From Bryobacterales bacterium (GTDB lineage Bacteria; Acidobacteriota; Terriglobia; Bryobacterales; Bryobacteraceae): a stretch of 64,000 nucleotides of DNA. Below, piece by piece: positions 39,725 through 46,446 of this stretch. Below the pieces are notes generated by a model. It ran no database searches. It was not told the origin of the DNA and was given only the letters and a program-made list of their open reading frames with translations. Position 1 is the first letter of the stretch. Every line of letters begins with the position of its first letter. The position numbers and the translations under genes are program-made. Location of the stretch: assembly GCA_003166865.1 (NCBI GenBank), contig PMUP01000055.1, positions 1 through 64,000 of the forward strand, in the 5' to 3' direction.

Positions 39725-39793
39725 CCTGAGCATACCTCCAAGTTTGGCTAGAAGATCACTTGGCGAGCACCAAGCGGCCGTAGTTACACAGTA

Positions 39794-40576
39794 ATGTTAC
39801 ACAGTACGTTAAACTTGCCGTTGGGTGCTTCCGTGCGCCGAATCAAGATCATGGTGTGTTATGACGGAACCGACTATCACGGCTGGCAGGTGCAGCCGGG
39901 GTTGCCGACCATCCAAGGCGTGCTGGAAGCCGTGATCTCCGGAATTGAGGGATGCGCGGTGCAGGTGGCCGGTTCAGGCCGCACCGATGCCGGCGTTCAT
40001 GCACTCGGGCAGGTGGCGTCGTTTTCGATCGAGAATCCGATACCGTTGGACAATTTACGGCGCGCCGTGAACCGTCTGCTTCCGCGCGATATTCGCGTAC
40101 TGCACGTCGAGGAAGCCGCGCCCGATTTTCACCCGCGCTTCCAGGCCAAGCGGAAGACGTACGAATACCGCATCTTTCGCGGCGAGATCTGTTCGCCATT
40201 CGAGCGGCGCTACGTTTGCCATCATCCGTATCCGTTGGCTGTGGAGGAGATGATCGGCCTCGCACCGTTGCTGGAAGGCGAGCATGACTTCACGGCGTTC
40301 GCGGCGTCGGATGATCGCGATGAGTTGGAAGCGTCAAAGGTGCGGACTATTTATTGCTCGCGGCTAGCGCTCGAAGGCGATCGGTTGATCTATCGTGTCA
40401 CCGGAAGCGGATTTTTGAAGCACATGGTGCGCAATATCGTGGGTGTGCTGCTCGAGGCAGGGAAGGGAAACGTGGATCGCGCGGGGTTGCTGGCGCGCCT
40501 GGAACACGGTTGCGTGATTCCACCCGGGCCGACGGCACCGGCGCGAGGGTTGTTTCTGGTGTCGGTGGAGTATTGA
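39794..40576 (+). CDS. truA: tRNA pseudouridine synthase A
   Basis: The 260-residue protein has CYDGTDYHGWQVQPGLPTIQGVLE, the catalytic Asp in GSGRTDAGVHALGQVASF, and FLKHMVRNIVGVLLEAGKG near the end. TruA converts uridines 38-40 in the tRNA anticodon stem to pseudouridine. The ORF begins at ATG 39794, but a GTG at 39833 (VRRIKIMVCYDGT) gives the more usual N-terminus. A diverged copy of its last 80 bases lies at 43033-43112 upstream of the kinase gene. Confidence 0.94.
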   Translation: MLHSTLNLPLGASVRRIKIMVCYDGTDYHGWQVQPGLPTIQGVLEAVISGIEGCAVQVAGSGRTDAGVHALGQVASFSIENPIPLDNLRRAVNRLLPRDIRVLHVEEAAPDFHPRFQAKRKTYEYRIFRGEICSPFERRYVCHHPYPLAVEEMIGLAPLLEGEHDFTAFAASDDRDELEASKVRTIYCSRLALEGDRLIYRVTGSGFLKHMVRNIVGVLLEAGKGNVDRAGLLARLEHGCVIPPGPTAPARGLFLVSVEY

Positions 40577-40992
40577 GTGGGCCGTCCGGGGGGCTACACG
40601 TGGGAACCAGGTGACGGTTGCTACGAGCATGGGTGTGCGATGCTGACTTGTCGGTTTAATCAGGGAAGTTCCTTTAACGCCATTTAGCGTGAGCGTAACG
40701 TCGACGGGTGCCCTCCGGACGAATTTGTTCCGAGGCCGGGCCTGCCTGACGAAATCGGGAGCGGCGTGGCCGGACTCGCCTTCGATGCGCTGGCGTCGCC
40801 TTCCAGGCTAATGCTGAAAATGCAGCAGCCAAGGAACGAGCGGGCCGTCTTACCTCGCCACGATCAGATACGCGACCGTAATACGCAGGAATGTTCACCC
40901 TGCCGCGTTGGGAAACTCAGTCGGCAAGACAAGAAGGGCAGTTCATACACTCTTGCCCTCGGCTCTTGAACAGACTACGCTTTCTGATAGCG
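40577..40992. other. Non-coding stretch between truA and an orphan membrane gene
   Basis: No supported gene is seen. Small overlapping ORFs on both strands (40674-40898 minus, 40766-40969 plus) have low-complexity Arg/Ala-rich products and no ribosome sites. This stretch lies in the block that separates truA from the kinase gene and may be imported DNA. Confidence 0.4.
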
Positions 40993-42375
40993 ATGAATCT
41001 GAGCAATGAATCGTTTAGCACGTTGCGAGCAGCGCACCTTCTGAGCATCGCGGTGTCCGCAGCCAGTCTTATTCTGCTCTTCGCCCCGTTCGAAACCGAT
41101 TTTCGCGAGGCGCTAAATGAGGCTCGGGTTCTTAAGGAGCTGAGCACTTCCGGGTTTCAAAAGTACGCGCATGATGCACTTGGTTTAGCGATGGCGAGCC
41201 CAGAGTTCTTGCCTCGCTCGTCAAGGGGAAGCGTGTATGTCGGCGCGCAGTTAGTGTTCTTCATGAAAAACAAGATGTGCTGCCTTAGCCCCGAGCCGGC
41301 TAACGACTGGTCGGTTACACCTGCGCTCGCTTACGATCCGCCTCCGCTCGGTAGGCCTCTCCAAGATTGGCTGACGTGGATTAATCTTAAGACACCCGCC
41401 CGTTACTGGAGCCCGGACTGGGAAGACGCGCTCATTTCTCTGGACACACTTCACAAAGCAAACAGCATTCCGGGGGCTGCTCCGGTATGCGACGACGATA
41501 CTGACTGTACGCCAGCCGATCTGAGGGCGCTGAGCTTCTTCAGCGTGCGTCCTGACAATCCCCGCATGTCTGGCGAACGATGGTATAGGTTTCGAGCGTT
41601 TTTTGACCGAGCATTGCAGCGAAAGCCTCCTGCTCCTTGGTGGCAAGGTCTTGAGGATGCTCCTTCGAGCAAATTCGAAGAAAAAGCCCTGCTAGAGTCA
41701 CTCAACAGAGAGAAACGTTCGGTGATTGAAGGTTTTGTACGGGCATCCTCCGACATGGGCGAGCGTGTTCTGCCTCCCATCAGTGCTTGGATCACACATG
41801 CGCCTTCCACGCGAGCACTCTTCGGCTCCCCCTCCCGACCTGACGAACTCGGGATGCCGAATCTGAGAGAGCACTGGTCTGTACTTGCTACGAAACCGCT
41901 CGACGAGGCAATCGCATTCATGGAGCAGGAGCAGAGGCGTGTTAGAGATGTAAGTCTTTTTGGCGTCTCAGTTCCGGGTTCCCTCTGCCTGGTCGCGATA
42001 CCGCTAGCCTTCGCGGTGAGCCACCTCTATCTTCTCCTTAACTTATCCTCCTGTATTGACGCGGTAACAACAATGAAGGAAGCGCCAAACGACCATTTCC
42101 CGTGGATAGGACTGTACGGTGAGCCTCTTGCACGAGTGGTGACTTCTTGGAGCATTACCTTAATTCCCGCCCTCTTGACCGCGCTTCTAATACTCCGATA
42201 TCACGGTCGGCTCGGCTTGTCTTCAAGCCTCCCGGCAGGCCTGCTTGCAGTGACAGCCCTCGGTCTCGGGTGGCAGGCATCCCGGTCGACCGCGAAATTC
42301 CGAGCGTGTTTGTCGGCATTGCGCGTCCGACAGGGGGACGGCCGCGATTCAGCAAACAACCTGACGATCGATTGA
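40993..42375 (+). CDS. Orphan membrane protein of unknown function
   Basis: ATG at 40993 (MNLSNESFSTLRAAHLLSI) gives 460 residues and places a membrane helix at about 13-30; the ORF could extend to 40891. A large soluble part (about 31-335) follows, with two possible disulfide regions (MCCLSPEP and VCDDDTDC). Three or four C-terminal helices come next (VSVPGSLCLVAIPLAFAVSHLYLLL, WSITLIPALLTALLIL, LPAGLLAVTALGLGW). I recognise no family. Its base composition is visibly more AT-rich and less codon-biased than its neighbours, and it lies in the block bounded by truA and the dtxR/truA scar, so it may be imported. Confidence 0.7.
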   Translation: MNLSNESFSTLRAAHLLSIAVSAASLILLFAPFETDFREALNEARVLKELSTSGFQKYAHDALGLAMASPEFLPRSSRGSVYVGAQLVFFMKNKMCCLSPEPANDWSVTPALAYDPPPLGRPLQDWLTWINLKTPARYWSPDWEDALISLDTLHKANSIPGAAPVCDDDTDCTPADLRALSFFSVRPDNPRMSGERWYRFRAFFDRALQRKPPAPWWQGLEDAPSSKFEEKALLESLNREKRSVIEGFVRASSDMGERVLPPISAWITHAPSTRALFGSPSRPDELGMPNLREHWSVLATKPLDEAIAFMEQEQRRVRDVSLFGVSVPGSLCLVAIPLAFAVSHLYLLLNLSSCIDAVTTMKEAPNDHFPWIGLYGEPLARVVTSWSITLIPALLTALLILRYHGRLGLSSSLPAGLLAVTALGLGWQASRSTAKFRACLSALRVRQGDGRDSANNLTID

Positions 42376-42833
42376 ATGCTGTCTGCCGCCCGCGCAGGCG
42401 TTATTCGGAGCGATGCGATTTCGCTTGTGCCCATGGCTCCAAAGCGTCTCGATTGAGCACAGAACATTGTCGTTGATGGTGGTCGCGACATAGGGCGAAT
42501 GTACCTCCAGCAACGGATCTGACCGGCGCCGTCGTGACATCGAGCAGGACGCCTTACTCAGCGGTCGTGTTCTTGAAGTGCGTCCTCCGCGCCCGCTTCG
42601 AGGGTCACCGCCTTCGCCCAGAACAAAAGGGCGGATCGAAGATAGATGAACACCTGGCCGTTTCACGCCGCTTGGCGCCGAGTGGACCCGCTTCACCTCG
42701 CTCGCAAACGGTCCCCAACGTGGGCGTGGTTGTGGACAGCCCGAAGTCTGATTCTGGGAAGCTTGCGGATCACAACAAGAAACGCACTCACCGCCGTCTA
42801 TGCCATTCCGATCACGATACAATCAGACTTGGC
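42376..42833. other. Non-coding stretch before the dtxR/truA scar
   Basis: No gene with recognisable domains is present; ORFs on both strands (42349-42822 minus, 42534-42974 plus) lack family features. From about 42803 the sequence becomes a near copy of the promoter region of the intact dtxR gene (matching from 45711), including its ATACAAT -10-like box. Confidence 0.45.
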
Positions 42834-43032
42834 GTGAAAATCACGGTCTCCAAGGAGAATTACCTCAAAGCGATTGCGGAAGCCGAAAGCGAAGGTGAGC
42901 GTGTCATTCCGGCCACTTTGGCCAACCGGCTGAACGTTTCGGCGCCGCGTTCACCATGGCCATCAAGCGCTTGAAGCGGGACGCATTGATCCGCACCGGC
43001 CGCGATGGGACCCTTTCACTCACTGCGGCCGG
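42834..43032 (+). pseudogene. dtxR-like gene fragment (5' part, frameshifted)
   Basis: From the GTG at 42834 this copies the first 199 bases of the intact dtxR at 45739, at about 90% identity by eye, and the upstream 30 bases also match. One base is lost near 42947 (GCGCCGCGTTCACC here, GCGCCCGCCGTCACC in the intact gene), so the helix-turn-helix frame is broken. The copy stops at GGCCGGG, where sequence related to the end of truA begins. It cannot make a working repressor. Confidence 0.9.
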
Positions 43033-43112
43033 GCCTGGAACCCGGCTGCGCGATTCCCCCCGGGCCGACGGCGGCAGCGCGGGGGTTGCTTCTGATATCG
43101 GTCGAGTATTGA
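43033..43112 (+). pseudogene. truA 3'-end fragment
   Basis: These 80 bases align with the last 80 bases of truA (40497-40576) with 68 identities by my count, including the final GAGTATTGA. Read in the truA frame, the copy is open and gives LEPGCAIPPGPTAAARGLLL. Only five residues differ from truA and the other changes are silent. That pattern means it diverged while part of a working truA and was truncated later. It is directly upstream of the kinase gene. Confidence 0.88.
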
Positions 43113-43154
43113 GGGTGCGCGACGCTATCGCGATGGTAGAATCGTTCGTCACTC

Positions 43155-45689
43155 ATGCCCTTGACTGCCGGAGCTCGATTAGGTCCGTATGACATCCTCG
43201 CGCCGCTCGGCGCGGGCGGGATGGGCGAGGTGTACCGGGCCCGAGACTCGCGCCTGGGCCGCGACGTTGCGATAAAAGTTTTACCCGCATCGTTTGCCGC
43301 TGATCCGGACCGCTTGCGGCGCTTTGAGTTGGAAGCGCGCGCCACGGGAATGTTGAACCATCCCAACATTCTCGCGGTCTACGACATCGGTACCCACGAA
43401 GGCGCGCCGTATCTGGTAACAGAATTGTTGGAAGGCGACACGCTGCGCGAGCACATTCCCTTGCCGCGCCGCAAGACCATCGAGTATGCACAGCAGGTCG
43501 CCAACGGCCTCGCGGCCGCGCACGCCAAAGGCGTCACGCATCGCGACCTGAAGCCGGAGAATATTTTCATCACCAACGATGGCCACGTCAAGATTCTAGA
43601 CTTCGGGCTTGCTAAGGTGACCAGCGCCGACGCCGCCCAAACGGCCACTTTGAACGCAACTACACCGGGAATGGCCATGGGCACCGCCGGCTACATGTCG
43701 CCGGAACAGGTTCGCGGACAACCCATCGATCAGCGTTCCGACATCTTTAGCCTGGGCGTGATTCTCTACGAGATGCTCTCCGGGCAGCGAGCGTTCCAGG
43801 GTGACTCAGCCATAGAAGCGATGAACGCAATCCTCAAACAGGATCCGCCGCCGCTGGCGGACGCCAGCTTCGATCGCTTGATCCGGCACTGCCTGGAGAA
43901 GAATCCCGAGGAACGGCTGCAATCCGCGCGCGACCTCAGGTTCAACCTGGATACGCTTTCCAGTCCCAGTCAAGCTCCGGCTGCACCCGCGATCCAACCT
44001 GTTTCTCCCAATCGCTCGCGCCTGATGGCCGGCCTGGCCGCGGTGGTTGGAGCCATCGCTTGCGTGGCTGCGGGCCATTACCTTTGGAAGATTCCACCTC
44101 CTCCGCCGCCGGCCTTCCACATCCTGACCTTCGACCAGGGTTACGTTTGGTCGGCCCGATTTACGCCGGATGGCCAGTCCGTGGTTTATGGCGCGGCTTG
44201 GAAAGGAAATCCGCTCCAACTGTTCTCAGTTCGCATGGGAAGCGTGGAGTCCCGCTCGTTGGGACTTCCCAGCGCTGACGTGCTTTCGATTTCTTCTTCG
44301 GGCGAAGTGGCCGTCTCCTCCGGCCGTCATTACACGGTCGGGTGGATCAACGGCGGAAAACTGGCGCGCGTGGCCCTGGACGGTCAAATTCCTCGCGAGG
44401 TGCTGGACGACGTACTGTGCGCGGACTGGGCGCCGGACGGTCGCTCGCTTGCATTGGTCCGTTCGGTCGCCGGACGCTATCGCTTGGAGTACCCCGAAGG
44501 CACAGTGCTGTATGAAACCAGCGGATGGATCAGCGATGCCCGAGTCTCCCCGGACGGGCAAAGCGTCGCCTTTCTGGACCACCCGCTTCTGGGAGACGAT
44601 CGGGGAACGGTAGCCGTGGTGGACCGGCAGCGAAAAAAGACCACGCTCTCCACAGAATATGCTGGTGAGCTAGGTTTGGCTTGGGCTCCCGGAGGCAAGG
44701 AGATTTGGTATACCGCGTCTGCCGAGGATTTCTATACGATCCGCGCGGTCTCGCTTTCCGGAAAACAACGCGTGGTCATGCGCTCGCCCGGCGATTTGGA
44801 ACTTCAGGATATCTCCAAAGACGGGCGCGTTCTGATCACCAGCTTTCAAAACCGGATGGGGCTGATGGGAAGCGCTCCCGGGGAGGGCCAGGAGCACGAT
44901 TGGTCCTGGTTCGATTATTCGATGGTCACTAACATTTCGTCCGACGGAAGCAAGCTGCTGTTCACGGAATCCTCCGCCGCTGGCGGTCCACTCTATTCTG
45001 TTTTCCTGCGCCGAACGGATGGATCTCCGGCGGTACGTTTGGGTGACGGCCGCGGAGAGGGCATATCCCCCGACGGTAAGTGGGTCTTGGCTCTGGTGCC
45101 GACTTCGCCTCCGCAGCTTAGCCTGCTGCCGACGGGAGCGGGTGAACCCAGAATGCTCTCGCGCGATTCCATTGATTATCAGCGAGCCTGGTGGTTTCCG
45201 GACGGCAAACGCATCCTGGTGGCAGGCAGTGAACCCGGCCATAGCACCCGCCTTTACGTTCGAGATCTGGAGGGAGGTAAGCTCCGGCCCGTCACGCCAG
45301 AAAACATCGAAGTGTCGGTCGGAGAGGATATTCTTTCTCCGGACGGCAAGTGGATTGCCGTCTCCGAGGCTGGACAAAATGCCCGGCTCTACCCTGTGGA
45401 TGGAGGTGAACCGCGCCCCATATCCGGCATCGCCGAAGGTGAAGTGCCCGTTCAATGGACCCCCGATGGAGGCGCGTTATACGTGCGGCGCTGGGATGAA
45501 ATGCCGGCTCGCGTCTTTCGCCTGGACCTCGGCACAGGACGCCGCGAACTTTGGAAGCAGATCATGCCGGCCGATCACACCGGCGTGGTCAAGATTAGCA
45601 CGATCCTGCCAACCCCCGACGGACGGGCCTATGGTTACAGCTATATGCGCATTCTCTCGGAATTGTACGTAGTGGAAGGGCTGAAATAG
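43155..45689 (+). CDS. Ser/Thr protein kinase with C-terminal TolB-like propeller
   Basis: The 844-residue protein has a kinase domain at about 12-275 with LGAGGMGEVYRARD, Lys41, HRDLKPEN at 129-136 and DFG at 149-151. A membrane helix lies near 290-313 (LMAGLAAVVGAIACVAAGHYL). A propeller follows with repeated xSPDGxxVAF and TPDGQSVVYG units. It is a membrane sensor kinase of the type common in acidobacteria. It lies between the dtxR/truA scar and the intact dtxR gene, and has no N-terminal extension unlike the kinase at 4036. Confidence 0.94.
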   Translation: MPLTAGARLGPYDILAPLGAGGMGEVYRARDSRLGRDVAIKVLPASFAADPDRLRRFELEARATGMLNHPNILAVYDIGTHEGAPYLVTELLEGDTLREHIPLPRRKTIEYAQQVANGLAAAHAKGVTHRDLKPENIFITNDGHVKILDFGLAKVTSADAAQTATLNATTPGMAMGTAGYMSPEQVRGQPIDQRSDIFSLGVILYEMLSGQRAFQGDSAIEAMNAILKQDPPPLADASFDRLIRHCLEKNPEERLQSARDLRFNLDTLSSPSQAPAAPAIQPVSPNRSRLMAGLAAVVGAIACVAAGHYLWKIPPPPPPAFHILTFDQGYVWSARFTPDGQSVVYGAAWKGNPLQLFSVRMGSVESRSLGLPSADVLSISSSGEVAVSSGRHYTVGWINGGKLARVALDGQIPREVLDDVLCADWAPDGRSLALVRSVAGRYRLEYPEGTVLYETSGWISDARVSPDGQSVAFLDHPLLGDDRGTVAVVDRQRKKTTLSTEYAGELGLAWAPGGKEIWYTASAEDFYTIRAVSLSGKQRVVMRSPGDLELQDISKDGRVLITSFQNRMGLMGSAPGEGQEHDWSWFDYSMVTNISSDGSKLLFTESSAAGGPLYSVFLRRTDGSPAVRLGDGRGEGISPDGKWVLALVPTSPPQLSLLPTGAGEPRMLSRDSIDYQRAWWFPDGKRILVAGSEPGHSTRLYVRDLEGGKLRPVTPENIEVSVGEDILSPDGKWIAVSEAGQNARLYPVDGGEPRPISGIAEGEVPVQWTPDGGALYVRRWDEMPARVFRLDLGTGRRELWKQIMPADHTGVVKISTILPTPDGRAYGYSYMRILSELYVVEGLK

Positions 45690-45738
45690 CCACCAAGACA
45701 CGGAGAACCATTCCGATCACGATACAATCGGACTTGGC

Positions 45739-46446
45739 GTGAAAATCACGGTCTCCAAGGAGAATTACCTCAAAGCGATCGCGGAAGCCGAAAGCGAAGG
45801 TGAGCCTGTTATTCCGGCCACATTAGCCCGCTGGCTGAACGTTTCGGCGCCCGCCGTCACCATGGCCATCAAGCGCCTGAAGCGGGACGCATTGATCCGC
45901 ACCGGCCGGGATGGAACGCTGTCACTGACATCGGCCGGGCGCGACATCGCCAATCGGCTGCTCAACCGGCATCATTTGATCGAACGGATGCTCACCGAGA
46001 TTTTCGGCATGGAGTGGTACAAGGTCCATGACGAGGCCGAGCAGTTGGAGCACGCCGTATCGGCCGACTTCGAGCGGCGCTTGCTGGATAAACTGGGCCG
46101 AGGCGAAGCCTGCCCGCACGGGAATCGCGTGGAAGGCGACACGCCGCAGGATCGCCGGGATCGCGGACTGCGGCCGCTGGATGAAGCTCCAGCCGAATCG
46201 GATTCCATCGTGGTCAGCGTGTTCGAGCGCGACCGCCGTTTGCTCGAGTACCTGCACGGTCTGGGCATTCATCCCGGCGCCGTAGTTCGGATGATGGCGT
46301 CCAACTATGACGACACGCTGACGCTGCGCATCGCGGGGCATCCGGTGCAGCTCGGGAAAGCCGCGGCCGCAAAGGTCTGGATCGCGGTGTCGCCAGTTAG
46401 GACGGAGCGAGAGCCGGCGAAGGCAGGCGCTGGAAGTAGTCGATAG
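45739..46446 (+). CDS. DtxR/MntR-family metal-dependent repressor
   Basis: The start is GTG at 45739 ([19 protein letters not shown]). The 235-residue protein has the winged-helix DNA-binding domain (1-65, [15 protein letters not shown] as recognition region), the metal-binding dimerisation domain (about 66-145, [16 protein letters not shown]...[12 protein letters not shown], with the His and Glu ligands) and a C-terminal FeoA/SH3-like domain ([16 protein letters not shown]). It senses Mn or Fe and controls metal uptake or storage genes. The end overlaps the convergent epimerase gene by 50 bases. A broken copy of its first part lies at 42834. Confidence 0.93.

Follow-up and report, generated by a model that had tools for sequence, protein, structure and literature searches.

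Pseudogenes left at the junctions of tandem duplications and unequal crossovers, in which the start of a downstream gene is joined to the end of one lying upstream, are a known kind. The locus described here, in a stretch of 64,000 nucleotides from a Bryobacterales bacterium (the window), carries a scar of 310 bases in which the promoter and head of dtxR are joined to the tail of truA, with intact truA and intact dtxR on either side. It is like such junction pseudogenes in the orientation of its seam, its intact outer copies, its short microhomology and its dead reading frame, and it differs from them in that its repeated ends enclose intervals of wholly different gene content.

The second process close to this locus is homology-facilitated illegitimate recombination (HFIR), which has been reported for S. 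pneumoniae, A. baylyi and P. stutzeri (PMC3240628). Most of its junctions show 3–10 bp of microhomology, a recipient deletion of similar size is usual, the average insertion is about 1 kb, and in three of four E. coli clones the joint was made without homology; most recombinants in that study were duplications from single crossovers, not HFIR (PMC3240628). Set against this account, one homologous and one illegitimate end would give the product seen at the scar in one step, and the 2.5 kb added here is of the same order as the average insertion (PMC3240628). The locus is unlike HFIR in that the homologous crossover is invisible at the scar and little recipient DNA need be lost, and the microhomology is 2 nt uninterrupted (11 nt with three mismatches) between parents that have themselves diverged. 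Since 3–10 bp is typical but none was present in three of the four E. coli clones (PMC3240628), an overlap of 2 bp is neutral on HFIR.

Structure of the scar

An earlier note on this DNA had described a dtxR head joined to a truA tail beside both intact genes. This is borne out by blastn of 42700-43200 against the whole of its own genome, which at E ≤ 0.001 returns the query itself and two places: the intact dtxR promoter and head at 45708-45940 (E 1.2e-89) and the end of intact truA at 40488-40577 (83% identity, E 4e-20). The coordinates and identities given at that time, about 90% for dtxR with one base missing and 68 of 80 bases for truA, are likewise correct. A 2.6-kb query detects no third copy of the scar in the genome at E ≤ 0.01.

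Similarity on the dtxR side starts 15 bp above a TACAAT box, and a single base is absent after position 42946. The relic differs from intact dtxR at 18 of the 194 coding bases compared (the first 65 codons less the gap) and at 1 of 31 promoter bases. The truA copy extends through the stop codon at 43110-43112, with its blastn match ending at 43113. The sequence GGCCGGG, previously taken as the point of the switch, does mark the place, but it is not a 7-nt junction shared by the two parents: their uninterrupted overlap is only GC, from which the truA-side match continues left to 43024 with three mismatches (11 nt). The join runs from within the downstream gene to within the upstream one, and complete copies stand outside it on both sides, which makes it a junction of the tandem-duplication type.

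Table 1. Coordinates of the scar, its parent genes and the two intervals in the window.
Feature	Position	Strand	Remarks
Intact truA, tRNA pseudouridine(38-40) synthase	39794-40576	+	TIGR00071 above cut-off
Interval version 1, with orphan 494-aa ORF (40891-42375)	40577-42802	+	GC 54-57%
Relic dtxR promoter and first ~200 coding bases	42803-43034	+	91% identical to 45708-45940
Seam	43033-43034		GC, the sole bases matched uninterrupted by both parents
Relic truA tail, stop codon included	43033-43112	+	Last 80 bases of truA, 12 differences
Interval version 2: serine/threonine kinase, C-terminal PD40 repeats	43155-45689	+	Starts 42 nt past the relic truA stop
Intact dtxR promoter and gene (gene 45739-46446)	45708-46446	+	DtxR-type repressor with FeoA domain

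The identity of dtxR is given by Pfam matches above cut-offs, the NCBIfam DtxR/MntR matches being below theirs. The true start of truA may lie about 30 nt later, where similarity to the relatives begins. Immediately upstream of this truA are divergent outer-membrane efflux genes, and similar ones occur within about 1 kb of truA in two other genomes (G007 and G012).

The scar is a dead relic

Stops occur in every forward frame of the scar, and in no frame is the dtxR start connected with the truA tail: translation from that start would meet stops at 42972 and 42987, and the single frame without a stop from 42899 up to the relic's end passes through the truA tail in the wrong register. A fusion protein, or a working fusion gene, is ruled out by these stops. 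With no frame through it, the scar is a chimeric pseudogene, a dead relic without a fusion protein. The relic also carries four codon changes (P23R, R31N, W32R and V40F) at residues that are identical in intact dtxR and in four other genomes of the genus (G001-G004), all of them within the Pfam DNA-binding domain match (residues 4-55).

Four further codons, I5V, A26P, V55T and Q60T, are common to the relic and intact dtxR and absent from G001-G004, and thus indicate that relic and intact gene split inside this lineage, after its divergence from the four relatives. The relic differs from intact dtxR by 9% and from the relatives by 24–27%; for the truA tail the figures are 16% and 24–31%. The two halves give no evidence of differing ages (18/194 versus 12/75 differences; Fisher p 0.13). 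The earlier expectation that the tail would group closer to the relatives' truA than the intact gene does is not borne out, since the tail is not clearly the nearer of the two, with differences per 75 bases to G001-G004 of 18, 23, 20 and 20 for the tail versus 20, 23, 21 and 19 for intact truA.

Two unlike intervals between the same ends

The pieces shared by the two sides of the locus, namely the end of truA and the start of dtxR together with the 15 bp that precede its -10 box, are just 9–16% diverged, and the intervals are otherwise unlike: a comparison of 40577-42802 with 43113-45707 yields matches of chance length only, so the DNA between the repeated ends is not now duplicated, which loss at a later time could explain. 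Translated searches of 40577-40900 and 42370-42810 against the window and 22 loci of relatives gave nothing stronger than E 0.03 for decayed remnants of the kinase or other genes.

Searches of Pfam, NCBIfam and PADLOC returned nothing for the orphan ORF, and PHROGs gave one chance-level match (E 0.26). Among 237 genomes of the family its full match is in its own genome only, two others giving partial matches near E 1e-3. Its GC content is lower. The C-terminal part of the kinase is matched in 61 of 61 genomes, the best match outside its own genome being 53–54% identical among the matches listed. In one relative from the same taxonomic order (G039:C97, L091, about 2.8-19.7 kb), the C-terminal part of the PD40 kinase has a row of matches on one contig, six of them long and one split.

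Two labels were considered and not adopted. The intervals were not assigned to a mobile element: the scar is the only long repeat at their borders, and the orphan ORF lacks Pfam, NCBIfam and PADLOC matches. Thirty-five PADLOC models match the kinase at E ≤ 0.1 (best PD-T4-6, 2.6e-86); we do not call it a defence gene, because the matches listed (25 of the 35) fall on the kinase-domain part and all NCBIfam matches are below cut-off.

A possible origin from two versions of one interval

The explanation we prefer, with about an even chance of being right, is that the scar is the dead junction left where one chromosomal interval, in two versions that had diverged, was spliced head to tail. Version A would have held truA, the orphan ORF and dtxR, and version B truA, the kinase and dtxR. 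One illegitimate join, at a microhomology of 2 nt that was perhaps originally longer, would have connected base ~200 of the dtxR of version A to the last 80 bases of the truA of version B, leaving truA complete on the left (from A), dtxR complete on the right (from B) and, between them, the accessory cassettes of both versions in tandem. With a whole copy of each core gene still in place, the event would have cost little. Afterwards the fragment would have decayed through amino-acid changes in the N-terminal DNA-binding domain and a frameshift, until no frame led through it. As in HFIR, and not as in a tandem duplication in situ, the two versions would have come from two cells or sister species, with homology used on the truA side and illegitimate joining on the other. 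That the intervals share no sequence favours such a join of two diverged versions.

The serious rival, which we regard as a real possibility though well short of probable, is a tandem duplication in situ from the truA tail to the dtxR head, the scar being a pseudogene at birth and the orphan ORF and the kinase having been lost reciprocally from the two copies. It would account directly for a seam of the tandem-duplication type, but it needs two extra, complementary deletions, flush with the truA stop and with the dtxR promoter and without leftover similarity. The two explanations differ in when the copies should have ceased to work: a long working phase followed by decay is expected for alleles that diverged apart before they were joined.

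Selection on the copies

We fitted codon models to 88 codons of six sequences, a short alignment in which silent sites are near saturation against the outgroups; for both reasons the evidence on selection is moderate. In the equal-time model, which allots the relic and the intact copies the same branch time, the scar branch has an omega of 0.28 versus 0.03 for the background; the limits at 3.84 lie between 0.10 and 0.15 below and between 0.5 and 0.7 above. For the combined pieces, both omega = 1 (2dlnL 9.6) and omega equal to background (2dlnL 16.4) are rejected, and none of 100 simulations under either null reached the combined values. Piece by piece, omega = 1 gives p 0.014 for dtxR and 0.021 for truA, and the background omega gives p 0.0002 for dtxR and 0.074 for truA. 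The equal-time constraint itself is not rejected (p 0.17). Given this model, an omega between the background and 1 suggests that most of the divergence probably arose while the copies were still working, with decay setting in later; read as a constrained phase followed by a free one, this omega would correspond to about a quarter of the time spent as a pseudogene. The rejection of omega = 1 under equal time, with no simulation reaching the observed value, argues against a pseudogene at birth and hence against the duplication in situ.

When branch times are left free the scar still departs from the background (combined 2dlnL 16.7), the background being rejected for dtxR (p 0.0035) and narrowly retained for the truA tail (p 0.054). 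Omega = 1 then fits the scar as well as the best value does, without a useful upper limit, so that immediate decay is allowed once equal time is dropped, in keeping with a duplication in situ. The changes that can be placed also look like plain decay, as that rival would have it: seven of eight on the scar alter the amino acid versus two of six on the intact copies (Fisher p 0.09), 16 of the 30 changes being unplaced. Both marks of a pseudogene, no usable frame and relaxed selection, are found in the scar, with relaxation only weakly supported in the truA tail by itself (p 0.05–0.07).

The earlier note had argued that the truA tail diverged as a working gene since most of its changes are silent. 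A purifying phase is supported under equal time (omega 0.28), but the raw comparison does not yield it: changes at the three codon positions number 8, 4 and 18 (p 0.006), and this excess does not prove that the tail was working, since silent changes also accrue on the intact branch and omega = 1 is rejected only with equal time.

Gene neighbourhoods in related genomes

Matches to dtxR occur in 47 of 61 genomes and to truA in 60 of 61 (E ≤ 0.001, with the own genome and distant paralogues counted). Within the genus the comparison rests on four other genomes, G001-G004, in two of which truA and dtxR lie on different contigs. The order in G001 and G002 is pyrE, truA, several other genes, two M28 peptidases, dtxR, an epimerase-family gene and an Fe-S protein gene; these names were checked with Pfam and NCBIfam on the pyrE and peptidases of G001 and on the epimerase and Fe-S proteins of the window. 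Besides the two peptidases that adjoin dtxR, the genes between truA and dtxR include an amidase or an MFS transporter; the content of this interval is not the same in G001 as in G002, a point in favour of the two-version splice, and no match to the kinase was found in it in either. The M28 pair also adjoins dtxR in G003, and one M28 gene lies about 1.8 kb from dtxR in G004. In G001 and G002 pyrE directly precedes truA (L035:2050-2664), where the own genome differs (39733-39794); the best match to the genus pyrE in the own genome is 34% identical.

We also kept 80 of 124 named dtxR loci, each reaching at most 10 kb from dtxR. A divergent M28 gene lies within 400 bp in 26 of the 71 loci with at least about 1.5 kb upstream, truA is present on 2 of the 80, and in the 69 with more than 3 kb upstream neither the kinase of this locus (within 3 kb upstream of dtxR) nor the orphan ORF was found. 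One of the loci (L143), from a GenBank metagenome-assembled genome titled Bordetella parapertussis, carries dtxR, epimerase and Fe-S genes of acidobacterial type at 70% identity, and its name looks wrong.

An ancestral order of truA, kinase and dtxR, as proposed before, is unsupported by these neighbourhoods: in G001 and G002 other genes stand between truA and dtxR, none of them matching the kinase; two of the four relatives are informative here, and the kinase count upstream of dtxR is 0 of 69 loci. On the limited evidence of these two relatives, the orphan ORF and the kinase appear to be fillings peculiar to this lineage in an interval whose content varies. Neither version A nor version B turned up by itself among the genomes searched, of which four others belong to the genus, two of these with truA and dtxR on different contigs. 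Against the splice of two versions, the M28 peptidases of the relatives are missing from both intervals (the nearest match to the genus M28 gene in the own genome, at 61% identity, is not a close copy), and duplication of an already altered interval explains this equally well.

The same order was the starting point of the history put forward in the earlier note, in which a second truA, the orphan ORF and dtxR were inserted beside truA-kinase-dtxR, lived on as working paralogues and were then fused by a deletion. It too would let the copies work for a time before decaying and would end in the same product, yet we think it quite improbable: the assumed order is not seen in relatives, two complete truA and two complete dtxR orthologues would have had to be long retained, and the history takes one step beyond need, one tandem-duplication-like or illegitimate crossover giving the same seam. 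Full duplicates of truA or dtxR were not found in G001-G004, where second truA matches are 38–42% paralogues and the one second dtxR match, in G002, is 48% identical and partial.

An assembly chimera is barely credible: the genome is probably a metagenome assembly, like the named genus relatives, and with 107 contigs and 1.5% contamination a strain mixture could supply both versions, but the dtxR piece, with its frameshift, its changes at codons invariant in five intact sequences and its relaxed constraint, is unlike an intact allele, and the k-mer joins of assemblers need an overlap longer than the 2 uninterrupted nucleotides at the seam.

The relic promoter and what the scar means

The relic has retained its -10-like TACAAT, at 42818-42823, which places the box 0.3 kb upstream of the kinase. 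A TACA(A/C)T box ending 8-14 nt before the dtxR start occurs in 31 of 80 loci (L098-L177) versus 0 of 79 controls taken 300 nt further up, the pattern having been picked after an alignment that included some of these genomes. From these counts, dtxR may have a near-leaderless promoter in this group, with the box about 10 nt before the start. Conservation of the relic promoter is not above that of the coding relic (1/31 versus 18/194 differences, p 0.48) and gives no sign of selection on it. A bolder form of the two-version splice, which we hold to be unlikely, is that a truA-to-dtxR stretch of a sister species was added and not swapped, by an event half homologous and half illegitimate; the two cassettes would thereby have come to adjoin, and the relic dtxR promoter may drive the kinase.

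The scar is real but ordinary in kind, a curiosity of genome evolution and not a new system, and by itself it brings no new function. What it offers is a well-preserved, datable seam, at which accessory genes can be seen to pile up between core genes while leaving the core genes unbroken. If the reading as a splice of two versions is true, such scars would allow additive illegitimate transfers to be counted in uncultured bacteria.
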